A stretch of 36,154 nucleotides of DNA, from assembly GCA_945862215.1 (NCBI GenBank), contig CAMAXY010000027.1:1-36154 (forward strand), written 5' to 3'. This document shows, in pieces, positions 12,352 to 35,360 of this stretch (position 1 is the first letter of the stretch; each line of letters starts with the position of its first letter). Position numbers and translations under genes: made by a program. Under the pieces are notes generated by a model. The model was not told where the DNA came from, did no database searches, and saw only the letters and a program-made list of their open reading frames with translations. This DNA is from Singulisphaera sp. GP187. Lineage in GTDB: Bacteria > Planctomycetota > Phycisphaerae > Phycisphaerales > SM1A02.

Positions 12352-12366
12352 TTGAAAACCTTGGAG

Positions 12367-15141: not shown

Positions 15142-15189
15142 GGGGGACTTTGCCTTTCCTGCAGTGATCTCTGATTCATTCAACCCACC

Positions 15190-15235
15190 CAACAAAAGAG
15201 CGCGCCGCGGAGAGAACGTTTTCTATCCGCGGCGC
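15190..15235 (-). terminator. Strong hairpin terminator after the major pseudopilin gene
   Basis: GCGCCGCGG at 15202-15210 pairs with CCGCGGCGC at 15227-15235, and AGAA at 15213-15216 with TTCT at 15221-15224, leaving a 4-base CGTT loop and one internal mismatch. Read on the - strand, the hairpin is followed by CTCTTTTGTT, a U-rich tract. This fits a Rho-independent terminator 62 bases past the pseudopilin stop and about 60 bases before the PilM-like start. Partial read-through would let one promoter serve both a highly expressed pseudopilin and weakly expressed assembly genes. Confidence 0.75.
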
Positions 15236-15296
15236 ACTTCTCTACTTGATCAGGCTCCCGCCGCTCAGGCGCCCGAATGATTGCTGAACGATTTGA

Positions 15297-15662: not shown

Positions 15663-15665
15663 TTC

Positions 15666-15681
15666 AAACCTCCTGAGGTTT
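15666..15681 (-). promoter_or_regulatory. Inverted repeat covering the pseudopilin ribosome-binding site
   Basis: AAACCTC at 15666-15672 and GAGGTTT at 15675-15681 are perfect inverted arms with a 2-base spacer. In the - strand transcript this folds as a 6-bp stem with the 4-base loop CAGG. The ribosome-binding site AGGAGGT is split between the loop and the 3' arm, three to four bases from the ATG. It could restrain or time translation of the pseudopilin. Confidence 0.55.
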
Positions 15682-15683
15682 AA

Positions 15684-15706
15684 GCGTTCGTGCAAGCACG
15701 ACACGC
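15684..15706 (-). promoter_or_regulatory. Second hairpin in the pseudopilin 5' leader
   Basis: GCGT (15684-15687) pairs with ACGC (15703-15706), and TCGTGC (15688-15693) with GCACGA (15696-15701), with a single bulged C at 15702. In RNA this is a stem of about nine base pairs capped by four bases, placed directly upstream of the hairpin at the ribosome-binding site. A 5' hairpin of this kind could protect an abundant mRNA from decay, if transcription starts upstream of it. Confidence 0.5.
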
Positions 15707-15764
15707 TTCGGTGTAGAGCAGGACGGCGACACTCGCTATCCAACAAATAAACTTTCGGATTCAT

Positions 15765-15780
15765 TTTGGTGGGAACCAAA
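15765..15780. promoter_or_regulatory. Candidate operator between the two secretion operons
   Basis: TTTGGT (15765-15770), four bases GGGA, then ACCAAA (15775-15780): perfect 6-base inverted arms near the middle of the 236-base region between the divergent pseudopilin genes. The position suits a dimeric regulator acting on both operons. No regulator gene is nearby and the site occurs once by eye, so function is speculative. Confidence 0.3.
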
Positions 15781-15858
15781 TTAACTTGATGATTTTTTAA
15801 AGATTTATGTCCCCGATGTTTTTATCTGCTATTTGGCTTTAGTAATTGGGTTTTTCCC

Positions 15859-15889
15859 TTGCAAATTCGCATCTGAATCTGAATATAAA
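15859..15889 (+). promoter_or_regulatory. Possible promoter of the minor-pseudopilin/secretin operon
   Basis: TTGCAA at 15859-15864 and TATAAA at 15884-15889, separated by 19 bases, lie upstream of the ATG at 15899. The -10-like box ends nine bases before the ATG, so any leader would be very short. The long spacer lowers confidence. Confidence 0.3.
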
Positions 15890-15898
15890 AGTGTGAAG

Positions 15899-16381
15899 AT
15901 GATGTTGAAACGAGCCGAGAGTATGGGAATGCGACGCGCTATGACTCTCATTGAATGCATGGTGGCTCTGGTCATACTCACTCTTTCTGCAAGCATTATG
16001 GTGATGGCAGTGCAAGGTGGACTGGCAGCTCAGGAAGAAGCTCTTTCCATGACACTTGCAGGAACTGCGGCGGAATCACGCATTGCTGAATATCTCTCAA
16101 AGTCATACCCCACGATTGCAGTCGCAGATATCACCGAGACAGCAGGAGCGATCAAAACGCCTACGGGTGAGTTCTTCAGTTCTTCCTATAACAAGATGTC
16201 ACGCCGAACCGTCATTACATCTGCAAATCTCACAGTGCCTGATTTCCCTGGTCTGATTGTGCAAGGTTATTTATTTGATGTGACTGTTTCTGATTCGTGG
16301 CAAGGACAAGCTCGCAAGCTTGTTTCTTTGCAGCGCTTTCGTCCGTGGACAACCGAAGAAGAAGGTGCCGTCACGCCATGA
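15899..16381 (+). CDS. Minor pseudopilin, GspI/PilV-like
   Basis: 160 residues with the prepilin motif MRRA|MTLIECMVALVILTLSASI: Ala rather than Gly at -1, Met at +1, Glu at +5, then a hydrophobic helix. The EC-x-VAL-x-x form resembles GspI, and the C-terminal half (YLFDVTVSDSWQGQARKLVSL) fits a GspI-type small domain. Candidate starts are ATGs at 15899, 15902, 15923 and 15929; I took 15899, giving a 13-residue leader, but a shorter leader from 15929 (MRRA) would be equally functional. The open frame from 15833 starts at a TTG and adds nothing. It is the first gene of the + operon and overlaps the next by 4 bases (ATGA). In type II systems GspI, J and K form the tip of the pseudopilus; the same is inferred here. 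Confidence 0.8.
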   Translation: MMLKRAESMGMRRAMTLIECMVALVILTLSASIMVMAVQGGLAAQEEALSMTLAGTAAESRIAEYLSKSYPTIAVADITETAGAIKTPTGEFFSSSYNKMSRRTVITSANLTVPDFPGLIVQGYLFDVTVSDSWQGQARKLVSLQRFRPWTTEEEGAVTP

Positions 16382-17085
16382 AAAAACCACCACGCGCATT
16401 CACTCTCATCGAGGTCATGATCGCAACGGTTGTGACGACGATGATCGCTGGAACTGTGGTGGCACTCATTCAAGGATTTGTCTCTGCACTCTCAATTCAG
16501 GATTTGCGCAGCGAAGCGATCGTGCGCAGCGCAGGCGTGCAGTCGCATCTGGGATTACTTTCGTTAAAGACGCGCATGTCTTTGGCGCTCAGTCCACAGC
16601 GCGTATTGCTTTGGCTTCCTGCGGAAACGCTTTTAACTTCCGGCAGCGGCAGCGATGCAGCATTCGATCGCATTGATCTCGCAGAAGATGAATTGCATTG
16701 GCTTGAGTTTGTTCAAGAAGAAGATTCGAGTTGGACGCTGATCGAATGGACTGTAAAAAACAATATGGTCGAATCGACGGAATCAGCAGTTTTTACAGTT
16801 GATGGCGTATTTTGGGATGACCTGTTTCTTCAGCTCAACGAAGCAGGGAAATTGCGTCGCTCACCGATTGCTTCAGGTCTTGCCGGACCAGAACTTGCCA
16901 CGGGAACAATGAAACGTCCTCGATTTGTCTGGCAAACGAGTGACTGCTGTCAAAATCGTTCGGTTGGAGTGGAGTTTGCATTCGTTGCCCTTATGGGCAA
17001 TGAAACATTGCAGGCCGATGTGCGCCTTGAAAGCGCTCTTGCGTTCTTTGATCGACACCCAATTTGTTCGGAGTCTGGATCATGA
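16378..17085 (+). CDS. Minor pseudopilin, GspJ-like
   Basis: 235 residues. The leader MKKPPRA is followed by FTLIEVMIATVVTTMIAGTV, again with Ala in place of Gly at the cleavage site. The larger globular part (about 190 residues after the helix) and the position after the GspI-like gene fit GspJ, which is usually about 200 residues. Two adjacent cysteines occur near the C-terminal third (TSDCCQN). The start overlaps the previous stop as ATGA, and the C-terminal stop overlaps the next start in the same way. The upstream frame to 16297 is an artefact of the overlapping GspI gene. Assembly into the pseudopilus tip with the GspI- and GspK-like products is inferred. Confidence 0.78.
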   Translation: MKKPPRAFTLIEVMIATVVTTMIAGTVVALIQGFVSALSIQDLRSEAIVRSAGVQSHLGLLSLKTRMSLALSPQRVLLWLPAETLLTSGSGSDAAFDRIDLAEDELHWLEFVQEEDSSWTLIEWTVKNNMVESTESAVFTVDGVFWDDLFLQLNEAGKLRRSPIASGLAGPELATGTMKRPRFVWQTSDCCQNRSVGVEFAFVALMGNETLQADVRLESALAFFDRHPICSESGS

Positions 17086-18854
17086 AACAATTTAATTTAC
17101 CTAGATTTTCAAGTCGCTCCCGTTCAAAATCTCCCAGCCATCGTGGTGTCGCGCTCTTGATGGCGCTCTTTGCACTCGGAGTGGCGGCAACAGCAGGAAC
17201 ATCGTTCGTCAAATCGAGTGATCACAGTGTGATGGTTGGTCGCAGTATGGGTGAAGCTGCACGTGCGCGCTTGGCTGCCGCAGAAGGACTGGCGATTTCT
17301 CGCGAAGTTCTCGCAAATATTTTCCAGCAGCCGGATGTCACCCTCGCATCGCAGTGGCGGGCACAACTTGCGGATGGTGTTTTGTTGACGAATTATCAAA
17401 TCAACGGTGCAACATTGAATGTCACAGTTGCTGATTTGACGACAGGCGCAGCACCAACCATCAGTACAACTGAATTTCAAGCGACAATCACCGTGACCGT
17501 AGGCGATACGAGTTATCAAATGAGTGCGCAGATGAGTTTGCAAAGTCTTGTCAAGGGCCAGTATGCGATCTTTGCAAACAAACTCTTCCGCATGGAAGGG
17601 AACAACTTTGTCGGTCGCTGGGAAAAAGCGCCGAAAAGCGTACTGAAATACCCAATTAATGTTGGAACGCAGGCGATGAAGAGTTGGTTCAGTAATGAAG
17701 GCGTTTTCTTTGGTACTGACGCATACTTTGAAGATCAAGCAGTCGCAATTCCAGGCACATACAACACATTCGCTCTCGCATTGGCTGCTAAGCCAACAGA
17801 ATTTGTTCGCGCTTCGCGCGCTGGATATGCGGGAGCACGAGTAAACAATGAAGATGTGGTCTATCACTACCTCGGCGGCAAGACTTCTCTTGCAGCATCA
17901 TGGGAAGTTGCGACCGATTCATTTGCCACCAAGCAGGCATATCTCTATTTCCCATCGAATGCAGAAAGCGTGACTGTCACAGGCGGAAGTGCCGAAGAAG
18001 TCGAACAGGTCCGATTGTCCGCTGGTCAATCGATTGTGATGCCTACGCCTCCATCAGAACCGTCATTCATTCCTGGAACGACATTCACGGGCAATAAAAC
18101 GTATAGCGGCGTCACCGTCACGCTGAATCCAATTCGCGTGAAATGCAACGAAATCTTTGGAATCCCTTATGCAGGAGGCGATCTCATCGTCTCGAATAAT
18201 TCTGTCATCACCCTCAATAGCGGTATCTATCGAGTGGATGACAAATTCACCTTGTCTAACAGTCGTCTGATCATAAATGGCAATGTGAAAATTGTGATGA
18301 AGGCCAGGCAGTGGTTTGATCTCGATGCAAAAAGTTTCTCGATGACAAACTCTGCGATCGAATTGAAAGCGAATTCGCAGTTGCTTCTTTTCGTTGCATA
18401 CGATTTGGTCACAACAGGATCGTGGATTGGAAGCGATTACACCTGCACTTCAGACCCGAGTGCCACGAACAAACTTGGCGACCCTCACCGCAAGAAGTGG
18501 CTCAATCAGTGGGTCGCGACGGTGTGTGATCCGGTTGCTCCGCAAGAGCCGAAGTACATCGAGCCTTGGAGAATTCGCATCTATCCAGACCCTGCATTCC
18601 TTTCTTCGATTTTCATCTGGGATTTCTATAACAGCTCGGTTGTCGGATCTATCTATATGCCAACCAATCCTGTGATTCTGCGTGGAAACACTGAGATCTA
18701 TGGTCGCATTGCGGCGAATCACGTCATCTTGCGCGATGAGGCGAGTTTCTTTTATGACCACGCTCTTGATGACATCACTGGAATCACCGAAGGGGCGCCG
18801 CCTCCACGCGGTGGTACGGCACAAATTCCAACTCGCATTCAGATCAATTTCTAA
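17082..18854 (+). CDS. GspK/PilX-like protein with large beta-helix-type C-terminal domain
   Basis: 590 residues. After a basic leader comes SHRG|VALLMALFALGVAATAGTS, which has Gly at -1 but no Glu at mature position 5, as in GspK proteins such as XcpX. The stretch EAARARLAAAEGLAISREVLAN is also typical of GspK/PilX N-termini. The C-terminal half (about 320-585) is repetitive and strand-rich: GGDLIVSNNSVITLNSGIYR, DDKFTLSNSRLIINGNVKI, SSVVGSIYMPTNPVILRGN, EIYGRIAANHVILRDEASFF. This resembles the bactofilin/beta-helix region of PilX-like proteins (I believe DUF7305) instead of the alpha-helical GspK domain. It is almost twice the normal GspK size. The start is coupled to gspJ by ATGA. A tip adhesin or cargo-contact role is inferred. 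Confidence 0.72.
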   Translation: MKQFNLPRFSSRSRSKSPSHRGVALLMALFALGVAATAGTSFVKSSDHSVMVGRSMGEAARARLAAAEGLAISREVLANIFQQPDVTLASQWRAQLADGVLLTNYQINGATLNVTVADLTTGAAPTISTTEFQATITVTVGDTSYQMSAQMSLQSLVKGQYAIFANKLFRMEGNNFVGRWEKAPKSVLKYPINVGTQAMKSWFSNEGVFFGTDAYFEDQAVAIPGTYNTFALALAAKPTEFVRASRAGYAGARVNNEDVVYHYLGGKTSLAASWEVATDSFATKQAYLYFPSNAESVTVTGGSAEEVEQVRLSAGQSIVMPTPPSEPSFIPGTTFTGNKTYSGVTVTLNPIRVKCNEIFGIPYAGGDLIVSNNSVITLNSGIYRVDDKFTLSNSRLIINGNVKIVMKARQWFDLDAKSFSMTNSAIELKANSQLLLFVAYDLVTTGSWIGSDYTCTSDPSATNKLGDPHRKKWLNQWVATVCDPVAPQEPKYIEPWRIRIYPDPAFLSSIFIWDFYNSSVVGSIYMPTNPVILRGNTEIYGRIAANHVILRDEASFFYDHALDDITGITEGAPPPRGGTAQIPTRIQINF

Positions 18855-18858
18855 GTCA

Positions 18859-18883
18859 AACAATTTTCAGCCAACAATTTTCA
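18859..18883 (+). repeat. Short direct repeat upstream of the GspH-like gene
   Basis: AACAATTTTCA occurs at 18859-18869 and again at 18873-18883, a 14-base period, in the 47-base gap between the GspK-like and GspH-like genes. The strong AGGAGG at 18888-18893 follows eight bases before the ATG. This is the only real gap in the + operon. Confidence 0.6.
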
Positions 18884-18901
18884 TTTCAGGAGGAAACAAT
18901 C

Positions 18902-19375
18902 ATGCGTCGAGCCTTCACACTCATCGAACTCATCATCACGACGATCATCATCGCGGTGATCGTCTCGCTTGCGTTGCCAATGTTCTCGGACCAGAGCGGA
19001 GGACGACTCTCCGCAGCACAACATCGGTTATGGGCGGATATTCAATATGCGCAGGCCTGGACAATTGCAAATCCATCAACCCCCGCGAAGATCAAATTTC
19101 TTTCTGACGGTTACACGATCGAAGGACCGCCAGATGCAGGAACAGTACGGTTCAATAAAAATAGTTTTTCTGAAGCATCAGGCGTACTTGTCACTGTGAC
19201 TGATGTTCCAGTCGATGGAATTCCATTCAATCATTCTGGCGCGTTGAATATCGGACTAGATGCAGCTGAACCGCGAATTCACCTTTCAACTGGCATTGGC
19301 CAGGAGTCCATCGATCTCGTTTTGCAACCCACGTCTGGACAAATTCGGGTGGAAAAAGCTATCGGGTTGCCATAA
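18902..19375 (+). CDS. Minor pseudopilin, GspH/FimT-like
   Basis: 157 residues starting with the very short leader MRRA followed by FTLIELIITTIIIAVIVSLA, Glu at +5 and Ala at -1. The remainder reads as a GspH/FimT domain: helical link (RLSAAQHRLWADIQYAQAWT), then strands, ending in the typical LVLQPTSGQIRVEK pattern where GspH proteins have a 'f-x-P-x-G' strand. GspH links the tip to the pseudopilus shaft in type II systems. The ribosome-binding site AGGAGG is near-ideal, in contrast to the coupled genes before it, so this subunit may be made in higher amounts. The secretin ATG follows its stop with no gap. Confidence 0.85.
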   Translation: MRRAFTLIELIITTIIIAVIVSLALPMFSDQSGGRLSAAQHRLWADIQYAQAWTIANPSTPAKIKFLSDGYTIEGPPDAGTVRFNKNSFSEASGVLVTVTDVPVDGIPFNHSGALNIGLDAAEPRIHLSTGIGQESIDLVLQPTSGQIRVEKAIGLP

Positions 19376-21523
19376 ATGAGCCGAAGTGTATTACTCAGCA
19401 CCTTTTACTTGGTGCAGATGGTCTCACGCACTTTGGATATTTATCAACGAACAAGCCCCGTGTATCAGACTCGAGTGCGATCACAATCGCACCGTGCAGC
19501 TTTCTCTGCGTACTTCGCAAGCGCCTTCGTGCAGGTTGCAATTGCGGCGGCATCAAGTTCGCCACAGAATGCAATTCCGACTTTTCCTCCTGGTGGATTC
19601 GCGCCAGTCACTTCGGGTTCGCAGGGAAATGCTTCAGCACCCGCAACCGTTGTGCCTGCGACAACTCCTGCAACAACTCCTGCGCCTGCCCCTGCGACAA
19701 CTCCTGCAACAACTCCTGCGCCTGCCCCTCCGGCAACAGTTGATCTCAGCCCTCCTCCGATTCTTGAAGTTTCAACACACGGGACCATCACACTCTCTGC
19801 TCAGAATGTTGCGGTCGATGCACTGCTCGAACTTCTTTCTGTTCGCAGTAAGCAGAACATTGTTGCCAGCGACAAAGTCGAGGGAAAAGTTTCGGTCAAT
19901 CTTTATGACGTTCCATTCAACGAAGCGCTCGAAGCAATCTTGTCAGTGAACGGCCTCATTTCAGTTCGTCAAGGATCATTCATTTTTGTTTATACGCAAG
20001 GGGAATTTGAGGCTTTGGAAAAAGCCAAGCGCCAACTCGGAACCCAAGTGTTTGTGCTGCAATTCTTGAATGCGAGCGATGCAGAATCGTTCATCAAGCC
20101 GATCCTTTCCCAGGATGGAAAAATGGCTTCGCGTGGAACTGTTGTCGCAGGATTCACGCCAACTTTGGAAAATGGCGGCGCAGATGATTACGCATTCACC
20201 GCTCGAATCGTGGTCACGGATTACGCTTCGAATTTGGCGGAAGTCGCTCGTGTTCTGAAAGAGATTGATAGCGCACCGCAACAGGTTCGCGTCGAAGCGA
20301 CAGTTGTCTCCGCCAACATCGATGAAAATAATGCATATGGTTTGGATATCGCCGCAATCGGCAATCTAAACTTTGACAACTTAGTGTCGAAGGCAATTTC
20401 GCCACTTGGAGTGCCAGACGCGCTTCAGACTGGTTTGACAGGTGACAAAGAACCTTTCACGCCCTATCCCAATTCCGCGCAAGCTGCGGCGATCACCAAT
20501 CAAGTTGCACTACCCAATGCACCACCAGCAAATATCAAGATGGGATTTGTCTCTGATGATGTTTCTGTCTTTCTGACAGTGCTCGATGATGTGACCGACC
20601 TCACTGTGCTCGCTCGTCCAGCGGTGACATGCTTGAATCGCCAACGTGCGGCGGTGATGATCGGAGAAAGAGTCGCATATCTCACGACCACGCAGAACCA
20701 GACCAGCACGACGCAAACGGTCGAATATCTCGATACAGGAATCAAGCTGACTTTTCGGCCCTTCATAACGGATGACGGCATGATCCGAATGGAAATGTCG
20801 CCAAGTATTTCTGATTTCACACTTCGTAAAATTGGCGTGCCAGGTGGTGGTGAGACGACGGTTCCCGACTCTACAACCCAGGAATTGCACACAAATGTTC
20901 GTGTTCGCAGCGGGCAAACAGTTGTGCTTGGTGGGCTCTTCAGCGACAAAATCACCTCGCAACGCCGCCAAGTTCCATTCTTAAGTGACATTCCACTTTT
21001 CGGTGGAGCGATAACTGGACAAGCTGATCGCGTTCAGCGAAAAGAAATTATTTTCTTGGTGACGCCGACTGTGATTGAGGATCAAAAGCTCTACGAAGAA
21101 GGTAAAGACTCGCTCGAAATTGTTGAAAACGTGCGAGTTGGTGCGCGCGCAGGGCTCTTGCCATTTTCGCGCGAGCAAGTCACTGCGAATTATCAGCAGG
21201 ACGCATTTACTGCGTACAACAATGGCGACCTCACCAAGGCTCTTTATTACTCCAACGCGGCACTTCGCATGAAGCCAATTTCGCCAGCGATGCAACAACT
21301 TCGAGAACGTGTCATTTCGATGCCAGGCTCTGATTATCAAGATCAAATTGATCAGACTTTGATCGAGCGTCGGACGTTCTCGCCGAGTACGCCCAGTGCA
21401 ACACCAAAATTAGCACCAGCAACAACTCCAGCGCCAGTTGCTCCAGAGCCAATCACGCCAGCAATTTCCGCACCAGTTGCACCAGAGCCCGCACCAGAAC
21501 CCGCACCAGAGCCCGCACCATGA
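19376..21523 (+). CDS. Secretin (GspD/PilQ family)
   Basis: Outer-membrane channel protein. 715 residues. The N-terminus is long (about 45 residues) before the hydrophobic stretch FSAYFASAFVQVAIAAASS, so translation might start at an internal GTG (19475). Then come a Pro/Thr/Ala-rich linker (about 85-122), an STN/N0-like domain (about 125-190; VAVDALLELLSVRSKQNIVA), a KH-like ring domain (about 222-305) and the secretin barrel domain with VRSGQTVVLGGLF, VPFLSDIPLFGG and RKEIIFLVTPTVI. After the barrel there is a single TPR-like unit (TAYNNGDLTKALYYSNAALR) and a Pro/Ala/Glu tail ending EPAPEPAPEPAP. Fewer N-domains than GspD, so nearer PilQ. The TPR lipoprotein gene overlaps its stop by 4 bases. 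Confidence 0.93.
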   Translation: MSRSVLLSTFYLVQMVSRTLDIYQRTSPVYQTRVRSQSHRAAFSAYFASAFVQVAIAAASSSPQNAIPTFPPGGFAPVTSGSQGNASAPATVVPATTPATTPAPAPATTPATTPAPAPPATVDLSPPPILEVSTHGTITLSAQNVAVDALLELLSVRSKQNIVASDKVEGKVSVNLYDVPFNEALEAILSVNGLISVRQGSFIFVYTQGEFEALEKAKRQLGTQVFVLQFLNASDAESFIKPILSQDGKMASRGTVVAGFTPTLENGGADDYAFTARIVVTDYASNLAEVARVLKEIDSAPQQVRVEATVVSANIDENNAYGLDIAAIGNLNFDNLVSKAISPLGVPDALQTGLTGDKEPFTPYPNSAQAAAITNQVALPNAPPANIKMGFVSDDVSVFLTVLDDVTDLTVLARPAVTCLNRQRAAVMIGERVAYLTTTQNQTSTTQTVEYLDTGIKLTFRPFITDDGMIRMEMSPSISDFTLRKIGVPGGGETTVPDSTTQELHTNVRVRSGQTVVLGGLFSDKITSQRRQVPFLSDIPLFGGAITGQADRVQRKEIIFLVTPTVIEDQKLYEEGKDSLEIVENVRVGARAGLLPFSREQVTANYQQDAFTAYNNGDLTKALYYSNAALRMKPISPAMQQLRERVISMPGSDYQDQIDQTLIERRTFSPSTPSATPKLAPATTPAPVAPEPITPAISAPVAPEPAPEPAPEPAP
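19661..19732 (+). repeat. Two tandem 36-bp units in the secretin linker
   Basis: The units 19661-19696 and 19697-19732 differ at one position near the end. Each encodes 12 residues of Ala, Thr and Pro. In frame, so copy number changes would only lengthen or shorten the linker between the signal region and the first periplasmic domain. Confidence 0.9.
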
Positions 21524-24666: not shown

Positions 24667-26694
24667 ATGGCCGTCCCTGCTTTTATTCCCGCGCTGATTG
24701 TTTCACTGTTCGCTGCGTCGACAACATTCGCAGCCATTTCGACACGACCAGGTATAGGAGCAATTCCGTATGCGTCGGGAACTCTCATCGGAACAACTTT
24801 TCGAACATTTGCACCCAACGCAACTGGAGTGACAGTCGCGGGAACATTCAACTTTTGGAATGCAACTTCTCTGCCGCTCTTTGCTGAAGGAAACGGATAT
24901 TGGTCCGTCGATGTTGCCAATGTGCAAGCTGGAGCGCAGTACAAGTTTGTGGTGAAAAATGCAACGCAGACACTTTGGCGAAACGATCCGCGCGCGAGAG
25001 ATCTGGTCTCATCGATTGGAAATTCTATTGTCTATAACGCAAACTCTTACGTTTGGCTGACGACAAATTTTAATATGCCTTCGTGGGACAAGATCGTCTT
25101 GTACGAATTGCATGTTGGAACATTCGGCATCGCTGCCAGCGGAGCGACACCTGCAAGCTTCGACGAATGCTCTGCAAAGCTGGATCATCTTGTCGAACTT
25201 GGCGTGAACATGATCGCGCTGATGCCGATCAGCGAATTTCCTGGAGATCGTTCGTGGGGATACAACAATTCATATCCATACTCTGTTGAAAGTGCTTATG
25301 GCACACCGGATGACCTGAAGGAATTCGTCGACGCTGCGCATGCACGAGGAATCGGCGTAACCGTGGATGTTGTTTACAACCATCTTGGCCCAAATGATTT
25401 GGATATGTGGCAGTTTGATGGTTGGTCTCAGAATGGTTTGGGCGGCGTCTTTTTCTATAACGATTTTCGAGCGGTGACCCCGTGGGGGGATACCCGTCCA
25501 GACTTTGGTCGCAGTGAAGTACGGACATTCCTGCGGGAGAACGCCATGATGTGGCTGAACGAATTTCGCATGGATGGATTGCGAGTTGACGGAACGAAGT
25601 TCATTCGCAGAACAGCTCAGAATGGCGTTGACATTCCAGATGGCTGGTCAATTCTTCAGGTGATCAATAACGATATCGATGCGGTTGCTCCTGGAAAGTT
25701 TGTAGTTGCTGAAGATATGGATCTCGAGCCGTACATCACTAAGACGACAGGAGCAGGAGGCGCTGGCTTTGACAGTCAATGGGATGCTGGTTTCTATCCC
25801 AAGATTCGCGGCGCGATCATCACGCCAAATGACAATGACCGTGACATGTATTCCGTGCGTGATGCGATCACTTTTTCATACAACGGATCGATGCAGCAGA
25901 GAATCATTTATACCGAAAGCCATGATGAAGTTGCGAATGGCAAGCAGCGAGTGCCAGAGGAAATTGCTCCAGGTAACGCTGGATCGTATTTCTCACGAAA
26001 GCGTTCAACGCTTGGCGCCGTCGTTGCGATGACTGCGCCGGGAGTGCCAATGCTTTTTCAAGGTCAGGAGTTCCTTGAAGATGAATTCTTCACAGACGCT
26101 GTCCCGCTCGATTGGTCCCGCAAGGCGACATACTCTGGAATCTTCAAGCTCTATCAGGATCTTATTCAGCTTCGCAAGAATGCTTCGGGATCAACGCGTG
26201 GACTTTCTGGTTTCAGCACAAATGTTTTTCATGTGAATAACACCGATAAATTGGTCGCTTTTCATCGTTGGCAGCAGGGCGGCGATCTGGATGACACAAT
26301 CGTCGTGGTCAATTTTTCTGCGACAGCAAAGTCTAATTACCGTATTGGAATGCCGCGAAGTGGCCTGTGGAATTGCAGATTCAACAGCGATTGGACAGGT
26401 TATAGCGCTGACTATTCCAACACGCTTTGTCTCTCGACGTCGACTTCACCTGTTGCGTGGGATGGTCTGGCACAGAGCGCGCTTGTTTCGGTTGGTCCAT
26501 ATTCAGCGATTATCTTTTCTCAAGGCAATGTTTTCCGACCACAAGATCTCAATCAAGATGGGCAGATTAACGCAGCCGATCTGACGGTGCTCTTGTCCGC
26601 ATGGGGAACTCTCGGTGGGATCGCAGATATCGATCGCAACGGAATCGTCGGTGGCGGCGACCTGTCAAGTCTGCTCAGTTCCTGGGGGACGTGA
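24667..26694 (+). CDS. Secreted GH13 alpha-glucan enzyme with dockerin-like tail
   Basis: 675 residues. Signal peptide (about 1-22), then an N-terminal CBM48-like beta-sandwich (about 38-125; [28 protein letters not shown]), then a GH13 (alpha-amylase clan) barrel from about 138. Conserved region I is VDVVYNHLG; the nucleophile is D308 in DGLRVDG, the acid/base E349 in VVAEDMD, and the third acid D420 in TESHDEV, so it should be active. The layout is like branching-enzyme or trehalohydrolase-type GH13 members ([20 protein letters not shown]), but export makes a cytoplasmic branching enzyme unlikely; an alpha-glucan hydrolase or transferase is safer. The C-terminus has two dockerin-like repeats ([40 protein letters not shown]). 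Its 3' end overlaps the convergent MalK gene by 20 bases. Confidence 0.92.
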
Positions 26695-27853
26695 TCGCCG
26701 AGCCATCTGCGCGAAACATGTGCGCATATTGTATTTCAAGTCGAAGAGTGATCGCATCGCCTTCACGAATTGCGCCGAGTGCGTCCGTTGCTGTTCGCGA
26801 GATGACGCGCTTCCCATTGACGAGTGCGACGATGTCTGCAAGAGGTCCATATCGTTCGATCGTGACAACGTGACCAGTCACGCTCGGTGAATCTTGTTTC
26901 TCGTCAATGGGCACGATCATCAGTCGATCTGGACGAATTCCCAGCGTGAGAGAGTTCTGGTCAATTGCTGAAAGTTCGGCACCAACCCATCGCTTACAAA
27001 GCGGAAATTCGCATTGATTCCAGTGAAAAGTCAAGCCGCCAACGCTATCTGCCGTCACACTCCCTGCAAGCATATTCATCGGCGGAGTTCCAATGAATCC
27101 AGCGACAAAACGATTCGCTGGACGCTCATAGATTTCGGCGGGAGAACCGATTTGTTGGACGATGCCATCCTTCATCACCACCATTCGATCTGCGAGACTC
27201 ATCGCTTCTTCTTGATCATGCGTGACATAGACCATCGTGGATTGCAGACTGCGGTGCAGGATTCGAAGTTCGGTCCGCATCTCGCCACGCAAGAGCGCGT
27301 CAAGATTTGAAAGTGGTTCATCAAAGAGAAAGACGGCAGGATCTCGCACGAGCGCTCGCCCAACTGCGACACGCTGCCTTTGACCTCCAGAGAGTTCGCG
27401 CGGCGGACGATTGAGCAAATGTTCGATACCAAGTGTGTGCGCAGCAGCATCGACTCGCGCAGTGATTGCAAGGCGCTCGGCATGACGCTGTGTGCGGTAA
27501 GTAGAATCCCAAATGCCGCGCCAGCGACTCTTAAAAGTGCGGCGACGTTCAAGTCCAAACGAAAGATTCTGTCGAACATTCAGATGTGGATAGAGCGCGT
27601 AGTTCTGAAAGACCATCGCAATGTTTCGGTCCTTCGGTGGAACATCATTCACGATCCGGTTGCCGATTGAAATAGTTCCCCCAGAAAGATCCTCCAATCC
27701 GGCGATCATGCGTAAAGTTGTACTTTTGCCGCACCCCGAAGGACCGACGAGGACGACAAATTCGCCATCCGCAATGGATAAATCGACTGAATCAACAGCT
27801 CGAATCGTTGTTCCATAAATCTTCGATACCGCTTTCAATTCAACTGTTGCCAT
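26675..27853 (-). CDS. Carbohydrate ABC transporter ATP-binding protein (MalK/UgpC family)
   Basis: The ATPase subunit of a CUT1-class sugar importer. 392 residues: Walker [10 protein letters not shown] (37-45), Q-loop [10 protein letters not shown], signature [14 protein letters not shown], Walker B VFLFDEP, D-loop SNLDA and H-loop VTHDQ. The C-terminal TOBE/regulatory domain (about 265-392) is that of MalK/UgpC proteins, which serve several sugar transporters. An insertion of about 25 residues ([20 protein letters not shown], then a few more) lies between the Q-loop and the signature, not usual in MalK. It does not adjoin the permease genes, which lie 1.7 kb away on the same strand past an opposite-strand gene. 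Its likely partners are nevertheless the permeases in this window. Confidence 0.95.
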
Positions 27854-27903
27854 GGAAGTGGTGAGGTTACCTATCGGGCGAGATGAGGTACAACATCACT
27901 TCC

Positions 27904-29271
27904 ATGAAACAGTTGACCCATATGATTTATCCAATCACACTCAATCTTCTTGCCTTTGTTCTTTGCCTTCAATCGCAAACTTCCAATGCGCAAAAACCTG
28001 CAACCGTTCCGCCAGCGGAAGTCGTCGCCCCTGACGGTCCGATGGAAGCAGTGCCGCCGACATCAAAGTGTCCACGCGATCGCAAGCTGTCAACAACATT
28101 GCGTTATGCAATTCTTCCTCTCATAGGCGAGATTGGTGATGCCACTATTACAGAAGCGCTTGAAGTATTCATTAAAGGTTCGCCCGCATCACGCCGCGTG
28201 AATGCGCTTGTGATTCAATTCAATGTCTCTGGTGGAACTCAGGCAGATACTGCCATTCTCGTGGATCAAATCATAAGAATTCGAAAGATAATGCCTGTCA
28301 TCGGTGTATTCGGTTCAGTGAAAGGTCCTGGCGCAGTACTGCCTGTGCTCTGCGATTATTTAATTGTCTTGAATCCAAGTGCAGATGGAATTGTGATGGA
28401 CTGGGCGCCTGGATCGGATCTTTCGGATGCCAACATAGCGCAGCAGATTCAAGCGAATCTTTCCACGATCACCTCGAGTGCATCGGATCGTCCTTATTTT
28501 AAAAATGTCTTGAAAGGTCTCCTCGATCCAACGGTCGATCTCTTCCTGTGGAAGGGAAGCGATGGATGTCCAGAGGCTGCCGAAAGTGCGCCAGCTGGAG
28601 TTGACGCAATTCAGTTGAGCAGCGGAAAAGACTCGCTGACTGGAATGACTGGAGCGCAACTTGTGACTGCAGGAATAGCCCTCGGCGTCACTGGTGGTAT
28701 TGAACAAATCGGGACCGCACTTGGGGTGCAGAGTTGGCAGGTCCAAGTTGGTGTCGGCGAAAAAATCGTGCAGGAGATTCAAGATTTAAAGCGCAAAGAA
28801 TCTGACAAGTTGAACTTGAATCTGAAAGATGGATTCACCGCAATTAAAGCCGCGCGCAATCTTGTTGGAGCAATGATCGAAGCCGAATCTATTGCACGTC
28901 AAAGCGATCCGCGCAGACAGCAGTATCAAAATTCATATTCACGCAGTTGGCGTGGAGGCAGATGGGGCTATAGCAGTGGCGGAACCGATTCATGGCGTAA
29001 GAACTGTGACAGTGCAATCGCTGCATGGAATGTGGTTTTACAGTTGTATCGACAGGCGAGCGAAGCAACTTCGTATGCTCAGAAAGTAGCGAAGGAACTG
29101 AAGTCCAGTCCTTCAATACAGACCAATCAAGAATTCAAGTCGGATGTCAATGCACTTCAAGCAGAAGTCGATGTACTGATGACTCAGAGTGGAATATTGA
29201 CTGTCAAGGGACAGAATGCTGAGAGTTCACTGCAGTGGCTCCGTGCAAATTACAATCAGCCAGTTCAATAA
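27904..29271 (+). CDS. NfeD/ClpP-fold exported protein, probably without protease activity
   Basis: 455 residues. Signal peptide ending near TSNAQ (about 29). Residues 65-285 follow the ClpP/crotonase-like domain of NfeD and SppA: strand YAILPLIGEIGDATITEALE, loop VIQFNVSGGTQADT in place of the usual TPGG loop, then helix, then VIGVFGSVKGPGAVLPVLCD where NfeD proteases have a Ser-Ala-Gly nucleophile motif, here Gly-Pro-Gly (141-143). Later LTGMTGAQLVTAGIALGVTG and IEQIGTALG match the NfeD family end of that domain. The C-terminal 170 residues are helical, with no NfeD membrane helices or OB domain. Loss of the serine suggests an inactive relative. Start could also be ATG 27883 or 27925. It lies divergent from the MalK gene; no link to sugar uptake is evident. 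Confidence 0.65.
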   Translation: MKQLTHMIYPITLNLLAFVLCLQSQTSNAQKPATVPPAEVVAPDGPMEAVPPTSKCPRDRKLSTTLRYAILPLIGEIGDATITEALEVFIKGSPASRRVNALVIQFNVSGGTQADTAILVDQIIRIRKIMPVIGVFGSVKGPGAVLPVLCDYLIVLNPSADGIVMDWAPGSDLSDANIAQQIQANLSTITSSASDRPYFKNVLKGLLDPTVDLFLWKGSDGCPEAAESAPAGVDAIQLSSGKDSLTGMTGAQLVTAGIALGVTGGIEQIGTALGVQSWQVQVGVGEKIVQEIQDLKRKESDKLNLNLKDGFTAIKAARNLVGAMIEAESIARQSDPRRQQYQNSYSRSWRGGRWGYSSGGTDSWRKNCDSAIAAWNVVLQLYRQASEATSYAQKVAKELKSSPSIQTNQEFKSDVNALQAEVDVLMTQSGILTVKGQNAESSLQWLRANYNQPVQ

Positions 29272-29562
29272 AAATGGGTCTTCAGACTTTCGTATTGGTG
29301 ATTGAGTCGTTATTCCTGAAAGTAAATAGTTTGCAGGATTTCCTGTCCGCATGGTTGGCCAAACCTTGCGTTCTTGGGTTCTGGATTTCGCATGGAATGG
29401 CGCGCAATTGACTGGTCGAAGTGGCGACCGCAATCGTCAATGCTTCTGAGATGCGATGATGTTTCGCTTAGGAGGACTGGATTTATATCCACGAACCGCA
29501 TCAACCCACACGGATTCCTGAAGCGCAATTAAAATATATTGCCCTACGCAAAATCATGCGCG
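29272..29562. other. 291-base spacer without a recognisable gene
   Basis: Between two convergent genes. Short open frames of 32-72 codons exist on both strands but none has protein-like composition, a ribosome-binding site or similarity that I recognise. Near 29535-29545, just past the MalG stop on the - strand, a small TTGC/GCAA stem precedes an AT-rich tract and could be a weak terminator. I see no tRNA or known RNA gene. Confidence 0.5.
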
Positions 29563-30426
29563 CTATCCCTTGACTGCGCCGCGAGCGAGCCCTTCGATAA
29601 AGTGACGCTGAGATGCTGCAAAAAGCAGAATGCATGGAACCATTGTGACCAAACTTGCCGCCATCAACAGGTGGACATCTTCCAGTCCGCCATATTGATT
29701 TCGAAATGAATTGAGCGCAACGGCAAGTGTCGATTCCTCATCGGAGTGCAGATAAATCAGGGGGCCCATAAAGTCATTCCAGACATAGATGAAGGTGAAG
29801 ACTGCACAAATCGCAGTAACAGGACGGCAGAGTGGCAGAATAATTCGCCACCAGATGCCGATCAATGTGTATCCATCGACCTTCGCCGCTTCGAGCAAAC
29901 TCTCGGGGATTTGCGCAATAAATTGGCGGTACATGAAAATAAAAAATGCATTTCCAAAAAATGACGGCACGATCAACGGCAGGAGAGAATCAATCCAGCC
30001 AAGATTGCGAAAGAGTAAGAAGAGAGGAATGATTGTCACTTGTCCAGGCAACATCATTGTTGAGAGCATTAAAAGAAAAAGTCCACGACTTCCGCGAAAG
30101 CGAATGCGCGCGAATGCGAAACCGACGAGACTGCTTGAAAGCACAGTGCCGACTACCACAAGCACGGTGACGACGATCGAATTCGCAAGTGCGTTGAGAA
30201 ATCCTTGCCAAGGCACTGATCCCATTTCGCGAAGTGCTTGTGGATAATTGCCCCACTGCGGCGATGGGGGCCAAAGCGAGAGGTCGGTTCCACCTGTGAT
30301 TGCAGCGCCCGCGCGTTCTGGAGTTTCGAGACTCACGACCAACATCCACCACAATGGCAGAAGCAATATTGCCGCGCCAGCAAACAGGATTGCGTATTGC
30401 AAGAGTTTCCAGAGCGTGCGATTCAT
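29563..30426 (-). CDS. Carbohydrate ABC transporter permease (MalG-like)
   Basis: Second permease of the CUT1-class sugar importer, in the inner membrane. 287 residues with six hydrophobic segments, the first at about 8-30 (LLQYAILFAGAAILLLPLWW). The EAA loop that contacts the ATPase reads SLLEAAKVDGYTLIGIWWRI, and PLCRP follows. Near the N-terminus is the MalG-like periplasmic part (LETPERAG ... WGNYPQALREMG). I chose the ATG at 30426 because it overlaps the stop of the fused binding-protein/permease gene as ATGA; the longer frame to 30513 only copies the upstream gene's last codons in another frame. It forms a two-gene operon with that gene. Confidence 0.95.
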   Translation of the reverse strand: MNRTLWKLLQYAILFAGAAILLLPLWWMLVVSLETPERAGAAITGGTDLSLWPPSPQWGNYPQALREMGSVPWQGFLNALANSIVVTVLVVVGTVLSSSLVGFAFARIRFRGSRGLFLLMLSTMMLPGQVTIIPLFLLFRNLGWIDSLLPLIVPSFFGNAFFIFMYRQFIAQIPESLLEAAKVDGYTLIGIWWRIILPLCRPVTAICAVFTFIYVWNDFMGPLIYLHSDEESTLAVALNSFRNQYGGLEDVHLLMAASLVTMVPCILLFAASQRHFIEGLARGAVKG

Positions 30427-32807
30427 GACTTCTGTCCCTCGGTATGCACCCATCGATTGCTTGTACGCAGAATAATCACGGTAAGTACAAGCACGACCAA
30501 CAACAAGATCCATGCCATTGCGCTGGCATAGCCCATTTCATAAAACTCGAATCCTTGGTTATATAAATAGAGAACATAAAAGCGTGTGAGATCGCCGGGT
30601 TCGCCGCCAGTCATCACGAATGCTTGGGTGAAAACTTGGAAGCTTGCGATGATCGCCATGATCGCGTTGAAGAGGATGATCGGCGAGAGCATCGGCAGAG
30701 TGATCGACCAAAATTGTCTCAATCGACCAGAGCCATCGATTGATGCAGCTTCATAGAGTTCGATTGGAATCTGCTGAAGGCCTGCGAGAAAAACAATCAT
30801 CGTCCCGCCGACGAACCAGAGGCTCATCAACGCGAATGCTGGTGCTCCCCAAATTGCTGCATCTTGTCCGAACCACTCTGGGGCAGTCAGCCCAAATAGT
30901 GTGAGCAGTGGTTGTAACGCAGCATTCATTAGTCCTCCATCCGAATCAAAGATCCAGCGCCAAAGAACCGCGACGCCAACACCAGCGAGCACGCTGGGCA
31001 AATACCACGCCGCACGAAAGAGATAGATGCCACGCACACGCGCATTCATCAGCAGAGCCGCAAGGAGTGCGAGAATTTGTCCTGCAGGAACTGCGAGAAT
31101 TGCGTAATACGCAGTGACGAAAAGACTGGTCCGAAAGCGTTGATCAAATTGAAAAAGTTGTTGGAAATTCGCAGTGCCTGCAAATTCCGCGGAACTGAGC
31201 GGCGAAACTCCTTTCCAGCGGGCGAATGCCAGAGCCAAGCTCATGACAATTGGAAATGCCATAAACAGAGCAAATCCAACAATCCATGGTGATGCGAGAA
31301 AATATCCAGCGCGTTCCTCAACTCGCTGATGCGCGGTAAGATTTCCGCGGCGAAGAAGCGCAATCCATACGGCGAATCCTGCAAGTGATGCGATGAGTGC
31401 AATCCATCCGAGTGTGGTCCACGGCATCGCGGGAAAAGAATCACTGCGAAGTGGGCTTTGCGATTCCACTCGCCAGTCGTGCTCGAAGTTTGAAATCGCT
31501 TGCGTCAGCGGAAGATCGCCAGTCTTGAGTGCTTGATCCAGACGCGATCCTAAGAGCGCCTCGAACTGCGGATTTGTTGGCCAATCAACGATGCGCGCAT
31601 GATCTGCTGCAGTCAGAAAGCCAGCGTCATTTTCGGGCAACTGATTTGGATCGTTGAACGATTCGCTTTGTGCTGCAGATCTGATCGTTGGGATCGCAAG
31701 TCCAAGTCGAGCAAGCGCACGTTGGGTTGGTTCTCCAGAAAGAAAACGAACAAGTGACCACGCTTCTTGCGGATGCTTGCTTTGATTTGAGATTGACCAC
31801 GAGACAGTCAGGACAATATTGCTTTCGACTTTGCCGCGCGGCAGGGGAGCGAAGTCCCAATCAAATCCACCTTGATTTACAGGTCCAATCTTGCGATAAC
31901 TCGGCACGACCCAGCGACCGAACGGTCCAGCAAGTCCAATTTTTCCAGTCAGAAAAACGCTCGATCCACTTGCAATCTGGCTCTTGCCACTTGTCAGCGT
32001 ATGGCTTTCGTCGTGTCGCCACGAGCGAAGTCGATCCAGTGCATTGAAAACTTCCGGATTGGATATTGTTGGTTCATCGAATGAACTTCCCTTGACGTCA
32101 ACTCCTTCGGTCATCAGATATGCGCGAATCATCGCGGGCCATGTCACAAATTCTGCACCAGTGCAATCGGGAAGTTTGCCGATTGCACGAGCGTCGGCGA
32201 TAAATTCATCCCATGTCCAATTCTGCGATGGTGGCGCAAGACCAGCGCGAGCGAAAAGATCTTTGTTCCAATAGAAACCAACGGTGGTGAAGTCCTTTGG
32301 GATTCCATAGATCGCACCTTCTCCGCTTTGGATGCCGTCAAATTGAAAAGCCTTCACAGTCGCGGGATAGAAGTCTTCAAGAATGATTCGATCTTTCACA
32401 TTCAACAGCGAATCACGCTTCAGGAAGTCATCGAGTGGCGCAAGCAATCCAAGTGAAACAAATGCTGGCAATCGCTCCGAACCAACATAGAAAACATCTG
32501 GAGGATCTCCAGACGCCATCATCGTTTGTAGCTTCGTATAAAAACTTCCCGCATCGCCAGGATTGATTCTGCGAACTCGAAGCGTGGGGTTTTCATGCTC
32601 GAATTGGCGAAGAGCGTCTTCTACGATTTGGTCTTCTTCTTGACCGCCTTCGCCAGACCAATGCATAACCACGATTTCAGTGCGGTTGTCGTTCTTCCAA
32701 AATCGTCGAGTTTCTCGCACCGCAACAGTCACGAATGCCCAGATCACAAAGAGTGTGGCCATGACGGCGAGCAGTATTCGGATCAATCGAGCGCTTGTTT
32801 GAAACAT
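30423..32807 (-). CDS. Fusion of sugar-binding protein and MalF-like ABC permease
   Basis: 794 residues combining two proteins that are normally separate. Residues 8-30 are an uncleaved membrane anchor without lipobox. Residues about 44-455 are a family 1 extracellular solute-binding domain (IVVMHWSGEGGQEEDQIVED, FYTKLQTMMASGDPPDVFYV, GIPKDFTTVGFYWNKDLF, LRFLSGEPTQRALARLG-like region near 370). A second helix (about 465-488) returns to the cytoplasm, and residues 500-790 form a CUT1 permease of MalF type: ASPWIVGFALFMAFPIV, then the EAA loop ELYEAASIDGSGRLRQFW (683-700) and final helices. The topology is consistent, with the binding domain outside. The frame is continuous, so this is one gene, not an assembly artefact of two. 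It is ATGA-coupled to malG. Substrate is probably a maltodextrin, judged from neighbours. Confidence 0.93.
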   Translation of the reverse strand: MFQTSARLIRILLAVMATLFVIWAFVTVAVRETRRFWKNDNRTEIVVMHWSGEGGQEEDQIVEDALRQFEHENPTLRVRRINPGDAGSFYTKLQTMMASGDPPDVFYVGSERLPAFVSLGLLAPLDDFLKRDSLLNVKDRIILEDFYPATVKAFQFDGIQSGEGAIYGIPKDFTTVGFYWNKDLFARAGLAPPSQNWTWDEFIADARAIGKLPDCTGAEFVTWPAMIRAYLMTEGVDVKGSSFDEPTISNPEVFNALDRLRSWRHDESHTLTSGKSQIASGSSVFLTGKIGLAGPFGRWVVPSYRKIGPVNQGGFDWDFAPLPRGKVESNIVLTVSWSISNQSKHPQEAWSLVRFLSGEPTQRALARLGLAIPTIRSAAQSESFNDPNQLPENDAGFLTAADHARIVDWPTNPQFEALLGSRLDQALKTGDLPLTQAISNFEHDWRVESQSPLRSDSFPAMPWTTLGWIALIASLAGFAVWIALLRRGNLTAHQRVEERAGYFLASPWIVGFALFMAFPIVMSLALAFARWKGVSPLSSAEFAGTANFQQLFQFDQRFRTSLFVTAYYAILAVPAGQILALLAALLMNARVRGIYLFRAAWYLPSVLAGVGVAVLWRWIFDSDGGLMNAALQPLLTLFGLTAPEWFGQDAAIWGAPAFALMSLWFVGGTMIVFLAGLQQIPIELYEAASIDGSGRLRQFWSITLPMLSPIILFNAIMAIIASFQVFTQAFVMTGGEPGDLTRFYVLYLYNQGFEFYEMGYASAMAWILLLVVLVLTVIILRTSNRWVHTEGQKS

Positions 32808-32879: not shown

Positions 32880-32888
32880 ATCATGATC

Positions 32889-35360
32889 ATGTTTCAGAGT
32901 AGTTATCGCAGCATTTTTGTTTTCGTGATTTGCGCGCTCTTCATTACGAGTCCGTGCTTTGCGTCAATTCTTCAGCAGTCCAAATCGACCCCATCCACTC
33001 AGTGGCCCCCGCGTGAAGCAAAGATTAAAAGTTCTGTAAATTCGAACCAATTTTCCAAGCCGCCATCTGTCGAAGTGCGGCTACTTGAAGACGGAAAATT
33101 CGTATGTCAGTTCAGTTTTCAATCAACAAAGCCAGCGCAGCGAGTCAATCTTACGGGCGAGTTCAATGGATGGAATACGCAGGCGACAGCGATGTCGCGT
33201 GGCGATGACGGTGTGTGGCGAGCCACGGTGCAAATGCCAGCAGGCGAACAGCAATACAAATTCCTCGTGGATGGCGATCAGTGGCAGTCGGATCCGCGCA
33301 ACGATCAAGTCATCAGTGATGGCCAAGGGGGAAACAACAGCGTGCTCCGACTCGGGGCACAAGCAAATCTTGGTGCAGTGCGAGCGCGGCGTGGTGACGG
33401 AAAGATCGAAGGAGGTGGAATTCTCCACGATCCAGTGCGCGCATCATTCGTACAGCGACTTCCAGATGGGAAATTGCTCTTGCGTGTTCGCACCTTGCGA
33501 GATGATGTAGAGGATGTCGAATTCGTATCGGAGGATGGCCGACATATCAGATTGATCGACTCAGGATCGGATGAAATGTTTTCTTGGTGGGAAGTTGCTG
33601 TTGTGCCCCCATCTCATCCTATTGCATATACATTTCTATTCTCTGATGGAGCAAGCCGATTGAGTGATGAACGAATATATTCTCTGACGACATCATCCGA
33701 TGCAATGTTCCGCACGCCTGAATGGGCGAAGGATGCAGTCTGGTATCAGATCATGCTCGAGCGTTTTCGAGACGGCGATACAAAGAATGATCCGCAACCA
33801 TGTCGGCCTTGGCGCAGCGAGTGGTATGTGGCGAGTCCTTGGGAAGGTCAAAACGGGAATACTTTTTACAAATGGGATGTCTTCTCGCGTCACTATGGTG
33901 GAGATCTCGCAGGCCTTCGCGACAAGCTTGGATATCTGAAGGAACTTGGAATCAACGCGATCTATCTAAATCCGATCTTTCAAGCGCCAACCCATCACAA
34001 ATATAACGCGACAAATTTTGTGCATGTCGATGAATCGTTTGGAACACAAGGCGATTATGCCAAAGCCGAAGCGGTCGAAAATCTTCTCGACCCCAAGACA
34101 TGGACATGGACTCCAACCGATCTGCTCTTTCTTGAGGTGCTCAAAGAGGCGAAAAAGCTTGGAATTCGTGTCATTCTTGATGGCGTCTTCAATCATGTCG
34201 GCACGGCGCATCCTGCATTTCGCGATGTGCAAGCGAAGCATGGAGGCAGCGCATACAAAGATTGGTTCAGCATTCGATCTTGGGAACCATTTGAATATGA
34301 CGGATGGGCAGGCTTCTTGGAATTGCCAGTCTTTCGCAAGAATGATCAGGGATTTACAAGTGACGAAGTCAAGCAGCACATCTTCAATGTGACACGCAGA
34401 TGGATGGATCCAAATGGCGACGGTGATCCTTCGGATGGAATTGATGGTTGGCGACTTGATGTTCCAAATGAAGTGGCGATGCCATTCTGGTTTGAGTGGC
34501 GGGAGCTTGTGAAATCGATGAATCCCGATGCATACATCGTGGGTGAAATCTGGAAGCGTGCTGATCAATGGCTTGATGGTCGTTCGTTTGATGCGGTTAT
34601 GAATTATCCATTCGCAGAGACAATCATTCAGTGGATTCGCGATCGCAACCACAAGATCAATGTGAGCGAAATGGATCGACGGTTGGCGGAATTACGCCGC
34701 GCTTATCCAGCAGAGTCGACGTATGTTCTTCAGAATCTTGTGGATAGCCACGACACGGACCGGCTGGTTTCCAAGATGCGGCATCCAGATTCGCAGTATG
34801 ACAAGGGCAATCGAGAACAGGAAAACCCCGCATATCTCGGGGGAAAGCCTTCGTCGGAGGAATATCGCAAAGCGCGTTTGATCGCCCTCGTTCAGATGGT
34901 CTATGTCGGTGCACCGATGGTTTATTACGGCGACGAGGTTGGCATGTGGGGCGCAGACGATCCAACAAACCGCAAGCCGATGTTGTGGAAAGATCTTGAG
35001 CCATACGAAAAGGCCGACGAGAATTTTGTTGATGAGGTCCATCTCGATTGGTATCGCCGCATCATCGCTCTTCGCCAGGCGCATCCTGCGCTCCGTCGAG
35101 GTTCGTTCGAAACGGTGCTGAATAATGATGCGCAGGACACTTGGATTTTTCTTCGCTCTCTGGCAGGCGAAAATATTTTGGTTGCCATCAACGCGTCATC
35201 GAATGAAGTGCAGATTGATCTCTCGCAAACTTCTGTTGGAACGCGTTCAGGACATTGGAGCACCATCTTCGGAGGCGAGGGCTCAGCTGCGAGCGACGAT
35301 CAATTTCCGCGCGTCTCTATTCCTGCGCTTTCAGGCCGTGTTTGGATTCTCGCGCCATGA
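32889..35360 (+). CDS. Exported GH13 alpha-glycosidase with N-terminal CBM48-like domain
   Basis: 823 residues. Signal peptide MFQSSYRSIFVFVICALF... ending near PCFAS (about 25). An AMPK/CBM48-like glycogen-binding domain (about 75-145; VNLTGEFNGWNTQATAM, GEQQYKFLVDGDQW) is followed by a spacer beta-domain and a GH13 barrel from about 275 (WAKDAVWYQIMLERFRDGD). Region I is ILDGVFNHVG; nucleophile D524 in DGWRLDV, acid/base E553 in IVGEIWK, third acid D622 in VDSHDTDR. The domain order and the long N-terminal part resemble neopullulanase/cyclomaltodextrinase-type enzymes (GH13_20-like), which cut maltodextrins, pullulan or cyclodextrins. The frame is open far upstream, overlapping the transporter gene; the signal peptide fixes the start at 32883 or 32889. 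ATGA overlap with malQ. Confidence 0.92.
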   Translation: MFQSSYRSIFVFVICALFITSPCFASILQQSKSTPSTQWPPREAKIKSSVNSNQFSKPPSVEVRLLEDGKFVCQFSFQSTKPAQRVNLTGEFNGWNTQATAMSRGDDGVWRATVQMPAGEQQYKFLVDGDQWQSDPRNDQVISDGQGGNNSVLRLGAQANLGAVRARRGDGKIEGGGILHDPVRASFVQRLPDGKLLLRVRTLRDDVEDVEFVSEDGRHIRLIDSGSDEMFSWWEVAVVPPSHPIAYTFLFSDGASRLSDERIYSLTTSSDAMFRTPEWAKDAVWYQIMLERFRDGDTKNDPQPCRPWRSEWYVASPWEGQNGNTFYKWDVFSRHYGGDLAGLRDKLGYLKELGINAIYLNPIFQAPTHHKYNATNFVHVDESFGTQGDYAKAEAVENLLDPKTWTWTPTDLLFLEVLKEAKKLGIRVILDGVFNHVGTAHPAFRDVQAKHGGSAYKDWFSIRSWEPFEYDGWAGFLELPVFRKNDQGFTSDEVKQHIFNVTRRWMDPNGDGDPSDGIDGWRLDVPNEVAMPFWFEWRELVKSMNPDAYIVGEIWKRADQWLDGRSFDAVMNYPFAETIIQWIRDRNHKINVSEMDRRLAELRRAYPAESTYVLQNLVDSHDTDRLVSKMRHPDSQYDKGNREQENPAYLGGKPSSEEYRKARLIALVQMVYVGAPMVYYGDEVGMWGADDPTNRKPMLWKDLEPYEKADENFVDEVHLDWYRRIIALRQAHPALRRGSFETVLNNDAQDTWIFLRSLAGENILVAINASSNEVQIDLSQTSVGTRSGHWSTIFGGEGSAASDDQFPRVSIPALSGRVWILAP

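Follow-up and report, generated by a model that had tools for sequence, protein, structure and literature searches.

Binding proteins and permeases in known importers

Cells usually produce binding proteins in large excess, and these diffuse freely. Fusion of the binding domain to the permease occurs in GlnPQ and OpuA. In EgtUBC importers, permease and binding domain likewise share a chain (PMC9732360), and among maltose/maltodextrin importers one has been described whose MalF carries a single fused MalE domain (Licht et al. 2019, Res Microbiol 170:1-12, as cited in PMC7756565 and PMC9045158). The DNA considered here, 36,154 nucleotides of Singulisphaera sp. GP187 (Planctomycetota; assembly GCA_945862215.1, contig CAMAXY010000027.1, positions 1 to 36,154; hereafter the window), encodes a sugar-binding domain and a MalF-type permease in one chain of 794 residues. 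This chain very probably belongs to a CUT1 importer whose binding protein is built into MalF, with sugar delivered in cis by the tethered domain.

As far as its title and the papers citing it convey, the system of Licht et al. 2019 is the same in carrying one CUT1 binding domain on MalF in one chain, its cargo being, by the title, maltose/maltodextrin. As for MalE-MalF fusion importers, MalG is separate in the window. The earlier system presumably comes from Bdellovibrio bacteriovorus, and PDB entry 6ffl ('Maltose/maltodextrin transport permease homologue') is taken to be its binding domain. Compared with the window's domain, 6ffl gives a weak partial match (residues 59-136 only, E 4.5e-5) that ranks below most of the 60 matches listed, and it is absent from the best 60 of 82 PDB profile matches; the two fusions may well have separate origins, given this weak resemblance. 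The initial annotation held such a fusion to be seemingly uncommon in a carbohydrate CUT1 importer; given this precedent, a claim of novelty is not supported. The window's fusion is a new and well-spread branch of an importer kind already described, its principle being known, and what is new is its spread over at least 35 of 294 Planctomycetota genomes in at least 14 families. The literature titles and abstract openings found contain no planctomycete fusion, and the prior fusion is known here only through citation.

GlnPQ, OpuA and EgtUBC resemble the window in having the binding domain and permease in one chain. They belong to other permease families and are homodimeric, each complex having at least two binding domains, the permease of GlnPQ and OpuA being of the PAO or OTCN family. 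The window's system falls outside the GlnPQ/OpuA family, its permeases being a MalF-type and a MalG-type subunit in place of a homodimer; because MalG carries no binding domain, one per complex is expected. Escherichia coli MalEFGK2 shares recognizable MalF, MalG and MalK parts with the window, whereas its MalE is separate. The MalF of E. coli has its own P2 domain, which has no counterpart in the window's fusion. Free MalE is reported to be in 30-50-fold excess of the translocator (PMC9045158), and genetics is cited as placing the C-terminal region of MalE near MalF (PMC3150292), which suits its joining to MalF at that end.

CUT1 systems with separate genes also occur in the same family of organisms (L038-L041, L044, L047). 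These have the window's order of binding protein, MalF and MalG, but as separate genes, with MalF 35-45% identical and no helix ahead of it. The unfused binding proteins of this family (L038-L041, L043, L044, L047) show no lipobox by a simple pattern, and several start with a twin-arginine-like or anchor-like segment.

The fused chain

The fusion gene and the parts of its product are as follows.

30423..32807, reverse strand: SBP_bac_1 - BPD_transp_1 fusion gene (MalE-MalF type), 794 aa from an ATG start, by open reading frame and Pfam
32721..32777, reverse strand: N-terminal membrane helix, residues 11-29, a signal anchor by prediction (hydropathy 2.61; helix 2-37 in the AlphaFold2 (AF2) model)
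31458..32684, reverse strand: sugar-binding domain, residues 42-450, predicted periplasmic (PF01547/PF13416; best Foldseek matches AbnE 6rjy and Lmo0181 5f7v)
31350..31418, reverse strand: linker helix, residues 464-486, predicted to take the chain back to the cytoplasm ahead of MalF (hydropathy 2.17; helix 463-486 in the AF2 model)
30426..31316, reverse strand: MalF-type permease domain, residues 498-794 (PF00528; PDB matches MalF 2r6g and SugA 8ja7)

That a binding domain and MalF share a single chain, as the initial annotation had claimed, is confirmed by the 794-residue open reading frame and by Pfam, which places PF01547 (SBP_bac_1) at residues 56-362 (119 bits, cut-off 26) and PF00528 (BPD_transp_1) at residues 578-779 (39.3 bits, cut-off 26.4). 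Hydropathy exceeds the threshold at residues 11-29 and 466-484 and in five further segments within the permease part; a MalF core comprises six helices. Residues 683-707 form an EAA-type loop (ELYEAASIDGSGRLRQFWSITLPML). The best permease matches of the MalF half in PDB and NCBIfam are MalF, UgpA, SugA and their relatives. The AF2 model of the fusion, built with 12 sequences, has a mean predicted local distance difference test score (pLDDT) of 63 and a predicted template modelling score (pTM) of 0.50; the binding domain is modelled better than the MalF part, and residues 451-463 are of low confidence.

Both halves lie in one open frame in 13 of 13 relatives from a contig collection (best-segment identity 61-95%), labelled as uncultured planctomycetes and including Phycisphaerales from Lake Baikal. 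A codon-by-codon comparison with six of these of equal length (L002-L007) gave a pooled ratio of non-synonymous to synonymous polymorphism (pN/pS) of 0.14 for the binding domain, 0.08 for the permease, 0.41 for the N-terminal helix and 0.42 for the linker with the second helix. At the level of codons, this shows purifying selection on both domains and weaker constraint on the two tether regions.

Linker helix and predicted membrane topology

The helices of MalF itself start from the cytoplasm. Because MalF starts inside and the binding domain is predicted to be periplasmic, an extra helix is needed between the two. All 60 fused loci examined have a hydrophobic segment within 60 residues ahead of MalF, as do 2 of 48 unfused loci, and in one of these two exceptions the segment is MalF's own first helix; the 60 fused loci include near-identical relatives and are counted apart from the window, same-contig copies and the distinct genome L063. 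Of the 60, 52 also have a helix ahead of the binding domain when the same hydropathy criterion is applied.

Identity, hydropathy and charge were averaged over 22 aligned fusion rows. Mean identity to the window is 19% in the linker helix, 59% in the binding domain and 68% in the permease, and the linker helix is hydrophobic in all 22 rows (mean hydropathy 1.45-3.28). The mean net charge of the flanks is +2.05 before and +0.14 after helix 1, and +0.68 before and +2.32 after helix 2. These charges fit an N-terminus inside, a binding domain outside and the start of MalF inside, and agree with the external position of the binding domain predicted in the initial annotation.

The importer locus and its probable cargo

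The remaining parts of the importer and the adjoining enzymes lie on either side of the fusion.

29563..30426, reverse strand: MalG-type permease, 287 aa (PF00528); its ATG shares 4 bases with the stop of the fusion (ATGA, 30423-30426)
26675..27853, reverse strand: MalK-type ATPase, 392 aa (Walker A GPSGCGKS, LSGGQ signature, TOBE_2 and OB_MalK matches)
32883..35360, forward strand: GH13 enzyme, alpha-amylase- or cyclomaltodextrinase-like, divergent from the fusion, with a signal-peptide-like start (start codon uncertain)
24667..26694, forward strand: second GH13 enzyme, with CBM48, beyond MalK, with a signal-peptide-like start

The permease partners are of two different types, with PF00528 in both the MalF half and MalG; the NCBIfam matches of the permeases to UgpA/MalF and UgpE/MalG all lie below cut-off. 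MalK exceeds the Pfam cut-offs for ABC_tran and TOBE_2, and its OB_MalK match falls just short (25 of 27 bits). Fusion, MalG and MalK make the parts of a CUT1 importer complete within the window, in agreement with the importer type first assigned. The signal-peptide-like starts of both GH13 enzymes were judged by eye.

Loci of the window's type (type I) were compared in their neighbours, with n = 36 and the window and L064 outside the count. A divergent GH13 gene is found in 35 of 36, MalG in 35, MalK in 30 and the second GH13 gene in 15; of the six loci that miss MalK, four are no more than 2.5 kb from where the available sequence ends, and two (L026, L034) miss it in full-length stretches. 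More distant fusions keep the same order, with GH13 upstream on the same strand in four of five (L068-L071, not L072). Eleven of the most distant (L073-L077, L079-L083, L087) have no match to the window's GH13 enzymes in the stretch compared and may for that reason carry other sugars.

Foldseek, run on the AF2 model, places the binding domain nearest to AbnE (6rjy, arabino-oligosaccharide) and Lmo0181 (5f7v, cycloalternan), followed by cycloisomaltooligosaccharide binders, UspC, GacH and several MalE proteins. The same two entries lead the PDB profile search, and 6rjy comes first and 5f7v third in the single-sequence search. As the closest structures between them bind both kinds of sugar, the domain by itself leaves the sugar unsettled. 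Alpha-glucan oligosaccharides are probably the cargo and are the best guess from the neighbours, because GH13 enzymes adjoin the importer here and a GH13 gene does so in nearly all type I loci.

Proposed working and alternative explanations

In the proposed importer, the N-terminal helix would remain in the inner membrane with the N-terminus inside, the binding domain would stand in the periplasm, and the linker helix would return the chain to the inside, where the MalF core begins. With MalG and a MalK dimer, this would yield one transporter with a single, doubly tethered binding domain. Outside the cell, exported GH13 enzymes would cleave alpha-glucans; the tethered domain would bind the resulting oligosaccharide and dock onto the MalF/MalG of its own transporter, and ATP consumption by MalK would power import. 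Topology, assembly, alpha-glucan cargo and delivery in cis by the tethered domain are thus all predicted features.

Several observations weigh against this reading. The AF2 model is of middling quality and low in the MalF part. Arginines also follow helix 1, and the orientation rests on net charge, with no clean positive-inside pattern. In 8 of the 60 fused loci there is no helix before the binding domain, perhaps through the choice of start codon. Among the ligands of the nearest solved binding proteins are both alpha-glucans (5f7v) and arabino-oligosaccharide (6rjy). The fusion has no match in 35 of the 101 genomes sampled from the window's family, including G042, of the same genus and 95% complete. 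Finally, a free binding protein or second importer may have been missed, the assembly being 93% complete and SBP_bac_8 outside the search.

It is improbable that the fusion is made whole and then cut after insertion, releasing the binding domain as an ordinary diffusible protein. The poorly modelled residues 451-463, immediately before the linker helix, could be accessible to a protease. However, this segment averages 56% identity with an SPL...FPxMPW pattern, and the joint is not a degenerate spacer, since that identity is close to the 59% of the binding domain; inspection by eye, without a signal-peptide or protease-site program, revealed no cleavage motif.

Slightly less probable still is a fused domain that acts as a sensor or lock on the transporter while a separate, free binding protein delivers the sugar. 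Nothing speaks for this directly, though it would also account for one domain per transporter. Against it, the assembly (2.79 Mb) holds one other SBP_bac_1 match, which reads as a phosphate-binding PstS beside a PstC-like permease, and the fused binding domain is strongly conserved both in pN/pS (0.14) and in mean identity (59% over 22 rows). The fusion used as a query found no second site in the assembly at E 0.001, in a search that also missed the window's own MalG. Within the SBP_bac_1 search, with SBP_bac_8 outside it, a free CUT1 binding protein seems to be absent from the cell.

A merger of two adjacent genes by a sequencing or assembly frameshift, which might be suggested by the adjacent binding-protein and MalF genes with 4-base overlaps in unfused relatives (L038, L040, L041) and by an apparent artefact of this sort in a Frondihabitans plasmid, has a negligible probability and is ruled out by the single frame in 13 of 13 other records, the purifying selection on both domains and the hydrophobic helix that all 60 fused loci have at the joint.

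The plasmid record, the sole annotated fusion encountered outside Planctomycetota, is NZ_CP014514.1 of the actinomycete Frondihabitans sp. PAMC 28766 (L127 2519-4897), in which SBP_bac_1 and BPD_transp_1 stand in one annotated coding sequence. It has a lipobox-like start and an arginine-rich joint without a linker helix; it is likely a read-through artefact in the public record and was left out of the counts. A rule of thumb follows for telling a true fusion from such an artefact, namely that the true one needs a membrane helix between its domains.

Distribution in Planctomycetota

In the window's family, 38 of the 101 genomes have a single-frame match that runs from residue 16 or before to residue 791 or beyond, and five more (G052, G054, G081, G089, G096) have partial matches. 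The next permease matches in the family are at most 45% identical, and none of the 18 examined (L038-L055) is fused. Across the phylum, the sample comprised 294 Planctomycetota genomes of at least 90% completeness, 29 of which have a single-frame match across both halves. Further permease matches (ten by Pfam) add six genomes with both domains (L091, L096, L107, L108, L109, L110, L111, of which L107 and L110 are the same genome), L113 being a doubtful addition. The resulting figure given above is a lower bound, three candidates per genome having been scored from a shortened match list.

Some loci lie at the edge of these counts. L113, with a 35-bit partial SBP_bac_1 match, is within the 60 fused loci and the 56 fused rows of the tree described below, and L087, fused by BLAST and under the profile filter, is outside both. 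In L042, L104 and L112, a long open frame precedes MalF, with no binding-protein profile match and no helix, and these three were counted as unfused; L104 and L112 also have no binding protein by Pfam. Genome G349 (L078) has the two parts as adjacent genes. Two fusion frames are unusually long, at 1118 aa (L074 4995-8351) and 1552 aa (L083 2478-7136); Pfam matches nothing in their extra N-terminal stretches, which may be open by chance.

In a plasmid collection, 2,428 records matched. Among the 60 rows listed, 21 cover both halves, 4 of them unannotated and all 17 annotated ones with separate genes; among the best 30 rows, 25 are unannotated where they match and the other 5 likewise show separate genes. 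The possibility raised in the initial annotation that such fusions are common in all bacterial groups stands in one half only: they are widespread in Planctomycetota, but separate genes are found in 17 of 17 annotated plasmid rows.

Tentatively, and with somewhat more doubt than confidence, a double-tethered binding protein built into MalF may be regarded as a general and old strategy of Planctomycetota sugar importers, and as the sole CUT1 binding protein in window-like lineages. If so, the usual large excess of binding protein would have been traded for a fixed one-to-one supply. With at least 14 families of a single phylum holding to one binding domain per transporter, there would be a natural experiment on the reason for binding-protein excess, and structural work could draw on naturally occurring MalE-MalF single chains whose linker helices differ widely.

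Inheritance of the fusion

The identities of the two halves co-vary over 56 fused loci (Spearman 0.93; none of 499 permutations as high). A quickly built tree of 104 MalF domains unites the 38 fused rows nearest the window's relatives in a single group with a Shimodaira-Hasegawa-like approximate likelihood ratio test (SH-aLRT) support of 97, and the fused/unfused label requires five changes. Several independent origins within Planctomycetota were supported at first, a single fused clade being rejected with all rows (56 fused and 48 others; approximately unbiased (AU) test, p 0.0026). This was not robust once long branches were left out: p rose to 0.27 without the four longest branches (two fused, two unfused; 54 fused of 100 rows) and was 0.157 without four further divergent fused rows (50 fused of 96 rows).

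Other genes in the window

No short-range inverted repeats were detected at 29261-30520. Between MalG and MalK, on the opposite strand, lies a gene for a 462-aa protein (27883-29271, forward strand) with a signal-peptide-like start and no Pfam match, which by eye resembles the ClpP/SppA fold. Its relatives adjoin MalG in near relatives of the window (e.g. L002-L007, L009, L013, L014), not in L011 and L012. Farther away, positions 9369-21523 hold type II secretion or type IV pilus-like genes, encoding T2SSF, T2SSE with MshEN, and a secretin.

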